NCBI GenBank assembly: GCA_021157815.1
Contig: JAGGVT010000011.1
Span: forward strand, 1 to 24,091
Direction of reading: 5' to 3'
Origin: a bacterium
GTDB taxonomy: Bacteria > JAJVIF01 > JAGGVT01
DNA length: 24,091 bases
Shown: in pieces, positions 3,753-20,654 of the stretch
Position numbering within the stretch: the stretch's first letter is position 1
How the letters are laid out: each line of letters starts with the position of its first letter
The notes under the pieces: generated by a model
What the model was told of the DNA's origin: nothing
What the model saw: only the letters and a program-made list of their open reading frames with translations
The model's database searches: none
Translations under genes and position numbers: made by a program

Positions 3753-3791
3753 TTGCACACTTGTTTCCCTAAATCCGCGATTGAACTCGTT

Positions 3792-3866
3792 GTCATTCCG
3801 GGCTTGACCCGGAATCTATCTTGACAAGCGAAAAAGATATGGATTCTGAATCAAGTTCAGAATGAC
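3792..3866. repeat. Two REP-like palindromes side by side
   Basis: Palindrome one (3792-3816) has arms ATTCCGGG and CCCGGAAT around CTTGA. Palindrome two (3842-3866) has arms ATTCTGAA and TTCAGAAT around TCAAG. They are in opposite orientation to each other, GTCATT outward on the left and AATGAC outward on the right. The first is the reverse complement of 8640-8664. The remaining non-coding sequence between 3650 and 4262 holds the two promoters, the right direct repeat and a stretch at 3885-4035 in which I recognise nothing. Confidence 0.7.
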
Positions 3867-4037
3867 AATTTATCACCCAATTGGTGAATTCAATGTTAAC
3901 CAGGAAAGCGAGAGCTTCCCACATAACCTGCGAGCCGTAGGCGATACGAAAATATCCCATCGCGGATTTAGGGTGAATACCGAATCGTTCTATCCGCAAA
4001 AAGGAGCATTCCCCAATCATGGGGTACGTCCACAAGA

Positions 4038-4184: not shown

Positions 4185-4193
4185 TGATATAAT
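4185..4193 (+). promoter_or_regulatory. Extended -10 promoter of the peroxiredoxin gene
   Basis: TGATATAAT, with TATAAT at 4188-4193. No good -35 lies at standard spacing (17 bases upstream reads CAAATT), which suits an extended -10 promoter. The 65-70 base leader contains a small hairpin, CCGGC and GCCGG (about 4209-4225), before the AAGGAG ribosome site at 4248-4253. Confidence 0.5.
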
Positions 4194-4262
4194 GTATTAA
4201 ATAGTAATCCGGCATCCCCTCGCCGGAAAAAATTATAAATCCCCACCAAGGAGATGAGACAA

Positions 4263-4871
4263 ATGACAGCAACAGCTGGAAAAGCGGCACCCGATTTTGA
4301 GGCTCCCGCTTATGACCAATCCGAGGGATTCACGAATGTTAAACTATCTGATTACAAGGGCAAGTGGGTGGTGGTTTGTTTCTACCCGGGTGATTTCACC
4401 TATGTCTGACCGACAGAGCTGAGTGCGGTCGCATTCCAATATGATGAATTGAAAAAACTGGGAGTTGACGTTCTCGCGATAAGCGTTGACAGCAAATTCA
4501 GCCACAAGATATGGCAGGAAGAGGAACTGTCGAAAATGGTTGATGGCGGCGTGCCGTTCCCGATGCTTTCGGACGCGGGAGGCCGTATCGGTAAATTGTA
4601 CGGCGTCTATGATGAAGAAAACGGTGTAAACATTCGCGGTCGATTCCTTATTGATCCTGATGGGGTTATACAGGCGATGGAGGTCATGACACCACCCGTA
4701 GGGCGTAATTTCGCGGAGCTCATTCGCCAGATTAAGGCTTATCAGCATGTGATAAAAACCGGTGAGGTCTGTCCCGCCGGATGGCAACCGGGTAAAACAA
4801 CTCTCAAACCAAGCCCCGATTTGGTTGGCAAGGTCTGGAAAGTCTGGAAACCCGACGCCGAGCTGGGGTAA
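4263..4871 (+). CDS. prxU: Selenocysteine-containing 2-Cys peroxiredoxin (AhpC/PrxU type), in-frame TGA read as Sec49
   Basis: The enzyme reduces hydrogen peroxide and organic or peroxynitrite peroxides in the cytoplasm. Read from ATG 4263 through an in-frame TGA at 4407-4409, the frame gives 202 residues, normal for a typical 2-Cys peroxiredoxin. AAGGAG ends nine bases before this start; the in-frame ATG at 4254 overlaps that site and is less likely. The TGA falls exactly at the peroxidatic position of the family motif FTxVCPTE, here FTYV-U-PTE. The resolving cysteine is kept as Cys170 in GEVCPAGW. The sequence after TGA continues colinearly to [10 protein letters not shown] with no other lesion, so a decayed gene is unlikely. 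A SECIS-like hairpin starts 11 bases after the TGA. Sec-type PrxU enzymes are established in Peptoclostridium acidaminophilum and in metagenomic surveys. The required selA, selB, selC and selD are not in the window. Conventional calling would report only a fragment from TTG 4449. Confidence 0.88.
4421..4436 (+). promoter_or_regulatory. Candidate bacterial SECIS hairpin for Sec49 of the peroxiredoxin
   Basis: In RNA, GAGUGC (4421-4426) pairs with GCAUUC (4431-4436), six pairs including one G-U, closing the tetraloop GGUC (4427-4430). The loop begins 17 bases after the UGA. Bacterial SECIS elements are known to sit inside the coding region just after UGA, with the apical loop roughly 16-37 bases downstream and a G in its first two positions; the Escherichia coli fdhF element has the same GGUC loop. 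A bulged U as in fdhF is not obvious, but U4420 lies unpaired just under the stem. Confidence 0.75.
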
Positions 4872-4919
4872 ACCTGCGCTAAATAAATTGTAACCCGGCA
4901 TCCTTTTGCCGGGGAAAAC

Positions 4920-4995
4920 CGAGCCTCGAACGTTAGTGAGAGGTGGGTGAGTATTGGTATAATCTGCCTTACCCCTCACTTACGTTCGGGGCTCG
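4920..4995. repeat. Long inverted-repeat element, copy A (GAGCCCCGAACGTTAGTGAG family)
   Basis: The left arm (about 4920-4944) reads CGAGCCTCGAACGTTAGTGA and the right arm (4971-4995) is nearly its reverse complement, ending GTTCGGGGCTCG. A few mismatches separate the arms, unlike the perfect copy at 20572-20654. The adjacent 4892-4914 has another small hairpin, CCCGGC with GCCGGG. The rest of the 304-base gap between prxU and lptF (4996-5175) shows only a possible TACAAT -10 box at 5153-5158 without a matching -35. Confidence 0.7.
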
Positions 4996-20281: not shown

Positions 20282-20571
20282 TGGTTCAGTATTAGCTAAA
20301 AGCTTAGCTATTATTAGCTTAAAGAATTCTTCGGAAATCGCAAAAAATACATCAAAATGGGCGCAAAAACAAAAAATTCAGTAAAAAAGCAAAAAACTTA
20401 ACATAAGAATTAACTTAAACAATTTTTTAAACAATGTTTAAACGATTAATCATGTGTTTTATCCAGCGGTGAAGTTCGTGGCCTGGTTTCTCATTAACCG
20501 GGAAAGTTGGTGGCTGATTCACGCAAAGCCTTGGCTGATGAGAAGCCGGGCTACATGCCAACAGAAAAATA
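20282..20571. other. A/T-rich non-coding stretch with a wobble-paired hairpin
   Basis: 20282-20450 is A-rich with short palindromes (TTAGCTAAAAGCTTAGCTA and GTTTAAAC-like). At 20481-20499 and 20533-20551 two 19-base arms pair with four differences, all transitions, three of which are G-U pairs in the plus-strand RNA, so a structured RNA is conceivable. No open frame, tRNA or T-run terminator is visible. Confidence 0.45.
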
Positions 20572-20654
20572 ACCGAGCCCCGAACGTTAGTGAGGGGTAA
20601 CCTCGAATTTGATACAAAGCGTCACATACCCCTCACTAACGTTCGGGGCTCGGT
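20572..20654. repeat. Long inverted-repeat element, copy B, perfect 28-bp arms
   Basis: The left arm 20572-20599 begins ACCGAGCCCCGAACGTTAGT and is perfectly complementary to 20627-20654, with a 27-base loop. The arms match copy A at 4920-4995, while the loops differ. Such a hairpin stays stable as either strand. A short GTTAACGCCG...CACCGGGTTAC stretch follows to 20720. Confidence 0.85.

Follow-up and report, generated by a model that had tools for sequence, protein, structure and literature searches.

A peroxiredoxin gene with a UGA codon predicted to encode the peroxidatic selenocysteine in a sparsely sampled bacterial class

The window analyzed here, a stretch of 24,091 nucleotides (positions 1 to 24,091 of contig JAGGVT010000011.1, assembly GCA_021157815.1), almost certainly carries a functional prxU gene in which an in-frame UGA is decoded as selenocysteine (Sec) to yield a 2-Cys peroxiredoxin, with the catalytic activity ascribed to the product by its family membership. 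The first-pass annotation proposed that a single in-frame TGA replaces the catalytic cysteine codon and that the frame is intact on either side of it. Both points are borne out: the frame contains one internal stop, is otherwise open up to a terminal TAA, and has the TGA exactly where a typical 2-Cys peroxiredoxin carries its peroxidatic residue, in the context PGDFTYV-U-PTE. The features of the gene are as follows.

4263..4871, + strand: prxU, encoding a 202-aa 2-Cys peroxiredoxin when the TGA is translated as Sec (NCBIfam and Pfam)
4407..4409, + strand: TGA codon of Sec49, the peroxidatic residue, in the PxxxTxxU motif (P42, T46, U49)
4770..4772, + strand: TGT codon of the likely resolving Cys170, in an EVCPAGW motif (sequence; aligned with 1we0 and 4fh8)
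4248..4253, + strand: AAGGAG ribosome binding site located 9 nt upstream of the ATG (sequence)
4185..4193, + strand: extended -10 promoter-like TGaTATAAT (sequence; only suggestive)
4421..4436, + strand: predicted bacterial SECIS hairpin GAGUGC-GGUC-GCAUUC (covariation and synonymous-codon control)

Comparison with the PrxU and AhpC models, in line with the first-pass annotation's advice to align the frame with both families, places the product with PrxU. It matches the NCBIfam PrxU equivalog NF040737 at 369.5 bits (cut-off 270) over nearly the whole length of the model, differing in that the match covers model positions 35-232 of 233 and starts after the model's first residue, whereas against the AhpC equivalog TIGR03137 it scores 200.6 bits, under the cut-off of 272. 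Its Pfam domains are AhpC-TSA and a C-terminal 1-cysPrx_C, and the closest proteins of known structure, 1we0 and 4fh8 among them, are 2-Cys peroxiredoxins. With these Cys-containing AhpC/Prx1 proteins it shares the fold family, as judged by sequence, the PxxxTxx(C/U)PTE signature and the VCPA resolving-Cys motif, but it differs from them in having Sec for Cys, in scoring below the AhpC cut-off, and in grouping with the Sec cluster of the tree. Since the VCPA/VCPAGW motif of 1we0 and 4fh8 aligns with Cys170, the window protein is, judged by this alignment, a typical 2-Cys peroxiredoxin in which Sec is the peroxidatic residue and Cys the resolving one.

A Sec-containing peroxiredoxin is on record from Eubacterium acidaminophilum (Soehling et al. 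2001, as cited in PMC8533274), and the window protein, compared here by way of NF040737, resembles that PrxU in being a 2-Cys-type peroxiredoxin whose peroxidatic residue, within TxxU, is Sec; the host differs, belonging to a sparsely sampled class. Further Sec-peroxiredoxins include 43 sequences from the Sargasso Sea (PMC1088965), 12 from an early bacterial survey (PMC1794560) and 91 in 78 organisms in another survey (PMC5029168), and the PxxxTxxU motif is regarded as their hallmark (PMC13188914). The initial description of the gene as a rare PrxU selenoenzyme is therefore right as to family, given the NF040737 score, but not as to rarity, given the 227 related stretches recovered here and the survey in PMC5029168. 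The PrxU family is already well described, and the window gene is a further member in a poorly sampled lineage rather than a new system. With it, the known range of this widespread peroxide-defense enzyme of anaerobes grows by one lineage, and the understanding of the family is unchanged.

Conservation of the TGA codon provides a strong line of evidence that it is meaningful. The scan for relatives used one genome per species and gave 227 related stretches, of which 80 were kept, mainly from the anaerobe-rich Chloroflexota, Thermodesulfobacteriota, Actinomycetota, Zixiibacteriota, Bacillota, Calditrichota and Krumholzibacteriota; stretches from further genomes were added. TGA occupies the Sec49 codon in all 83 distinct Sec-group genes besides the window's own, and the equivalent codon is TGC or TGT in 22 more distant Cys homologs, a distribution that makes chance or sequencing error very unlikely. 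The same distribution bears on the idea that a Cys peroxiredoxin gene was inactivated by nonsense mutation, or only appears so through sequencing error (TGC/TGT to TGA). A single base change would be enough, and an ordinary, intact Cys peroxiredoxin gene lies at another locus of the genome and could make the prxU copy dispensable. However, TGA stands at the same codon in every clade relative, the frame continues undamaged on both sides, the SECIS hairpin is conserved, and the genome encodes Sec machinery, so that we regard inactivation as highly improbable.

The Sec genes group together in the tree, and only one Cys gene, L021, falls within the base of this group; it still exceeds the PrxU cut-off, at 274.6 bits, and may mark a switch between Sec and Cys. 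Its neighbor there is the Sec gene L022, but both branches are long. The gene tree follows host phyla only loosely, a pattern that would fit horizontal transfer.

Downstream of the UGA the window RNA reads CCGACAGAGCU-GAGUGC-GGUC-GCAUUC, and nucleotides +12 to +27 form a predicted hairpin whose 6-bp stem carries a GGUC loop 17 nt after the UGA. The published bacterial SECIS model has four parts, including an energy threshold of -7.5 kcal/mol (PMC13188914). The window hairpin fits three of the four; its energy, -5.8 kcal/mol alone and -6.6 with flanks, is weaker than the model's threshold. Comparative data support the element. Pairs 14-25, 15-24, 16-23, 17-22 and 18-21 are retained in 83-84 of the 84 Sec genes, with two-sided changes at pair 15-24 in 11 genes and at pair 18-21 in 22 (A-U versus G-C). 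A stem of at least four pairs occurs in 98% of Sec genes, whereas shuffling synonymous codons yields such stems in 30% on average and in 44% at most. The GU tip is present in 84 of 84 Sec genes, and none of the 22 Cys homologs has a 4-pair stem or a GU tip. The hairpin at 4421-4436 is the predicted Sec insertion element. Folding alone favors a different, minimum-energy hairpin that includes the UGA; this candidate was rejected as the SECIS, with one core pair broken in 61 of 84 relatives and its five outer pairs retained in 15 of the 84 genes.

The first-pass annotation also held that the host must possess Sec machinery, and named the absence of selB or tRNA-Sec from the genome as the evidence that would overturn its reading. 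Both genes were looked for and are present in the assembly. The tRNA-Sec scores 65.5 bits (cut-off 47), is called SeC with anticodon tca by ARAGORN, and is separated from its contig's end by 58 bp; on a different contig, SelB scores 345.9 bits (cut-off 242.25) in a frame that runs off the contig end. SelA is found at 524.8 bits (cut-off 267.9). A second selenoprotein gene encodes a formate dehydrogenase alpha subunit, FdhA (L134, contig C37:15104-15853), with an in-frame TGA in ARIUHSSTVASLAATFGRGAMT within an open frame, and a GU-tip hairpin is also present after this TGA. FdhA adjoins a frame that reads like FdhE.

A reassignment of TGA to an amino acid throughout the genome, as a change of code in place of Sec, would account for one TGA being read through. 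TGA is nevertheless the normal stop in 6 of the 17 window genes and so is not globally reassigned; these stops refute the code change, the presence of Sec machinery also speaks against it, and we put its probability at practically nil. With UGA decoding as Sec, the TGA is meaningful and the bacterium uses selenium, and an annotation that ended the gene at the TGA would consequently be wrong, even though gene finders would take it for a stop.

SelD is required for Sec synthesis. The expectation of complete Sec machinery is upheld for tRNA-Sec, SelA and SelB but not for SelD, which TIGR00476, NF002098 and the AIRS Pfam family all failed to find in this incomplete assembly. Genes with AIRS domains were considered as SelD and set aside, as they resemble PurM, PurL and ThiL, the last of these next to a ThiC-like gene. 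An assembly gap is likely, since completeness stands at 90.9% over 221 contigs and SelD is over cut-off in each of the other six sampled genomes with a TGA-PrxU (G009, G013, G024, G033, G038 and G048); with two Sec genes touching or near contig ends, a missing piece explains the absence most simply. The lack of SelD could instead mean that prxU is real but a decaying relic in a lineage that has lost Sec decoding. Consistent with such loss, three models missed SelD, and three genomes of the same class lack SelA and have neither SelD nor PrxU over cut-off, from which the Sec trait appears patchy in the class. Against it, the scores of tRNA-Sec, SelA and SelB are those of intact genes, save that SelB is cut at its contig end, the Sec codon of FdhA lies in an open frame, neither selenoprotein frame shows damage, and incompleteness at 90.9% must be allowed for; decay is in our judgment very unlikely. 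Equally unlikely is a novel source of selenophosphate, made or acquired by the lineage in some unknown way, that would let it decode Sec with tRNA-Sec, SelA, SelB and two selenoprotein genes but no recognizable SelD.

For a functional prxU, then, we propose that SelB and Sec-tRNA-Sec would read the UGA at 4407-4409 as selenocysteine, with the hairpin at 4421-4436 guiding insertion, a step for which frame, codon, hairpin conservation and machinery can all be read from the genome. The chemistry that follows is modeled on the family. Attack of the Sec49 selenolate on peroxide would leave a selenenic acid. A selenenylsulfide would then form with Cys170, probably that of the partner subunit, and be opened by a thioredoxin-like reductant.

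Signals upstream of the gene are of unequal strength. The ribosome binding site claimed initially is present as AAGGAG. The extended -10 is an exact TGaTATAAT, as had been reported, but no -35 fits it and a scan for -35/-10 consensus promoters did not list 4185-4193; the promoter claim is for these reasons weaker than the other claims on the gene. The gene stands alone in the window, where no operon partners were found, with a lipoprotein-like gene upstream on the other strand and LptF/LptG downstream. Within about 3 kb of related loci, recurrent neighbors, whose names were assigned by reading sequences, are desulfoferrodoxin/neelaredoxin (15), a Fur/PerR-type regulator (12), rubrerythrin (11) and flavodiiron protein (6), a set that fits a role in peroxide and oxygen defense in anaerobes.

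Several repeats occur in the window. Two copies (80% alike) of a hairpin element of ~35 nt, CCGGCATCC..GCCGG, flank the gene at 4198-4232 and 4884-4918, the former in its 5′ leader, and many further copies occur genome-wide as matches of about 30 nt. A near-palindromic element of ~75 nt (CGAGCCTCGAACG...CGTTCGGGGCTCG) lies at 4914-4990 and 20571-20654 of the window and recurs in dozens of copies on many contigs, resembling a REP/MITE-like interspersed repeat. Upstream of prxU, a perfect 15-nt inverted repeat (3767-3781 and 3959-3973) encloses an imperfect 30-nt inverted repeat (3790-3868), possibly another mobile or repeat element.
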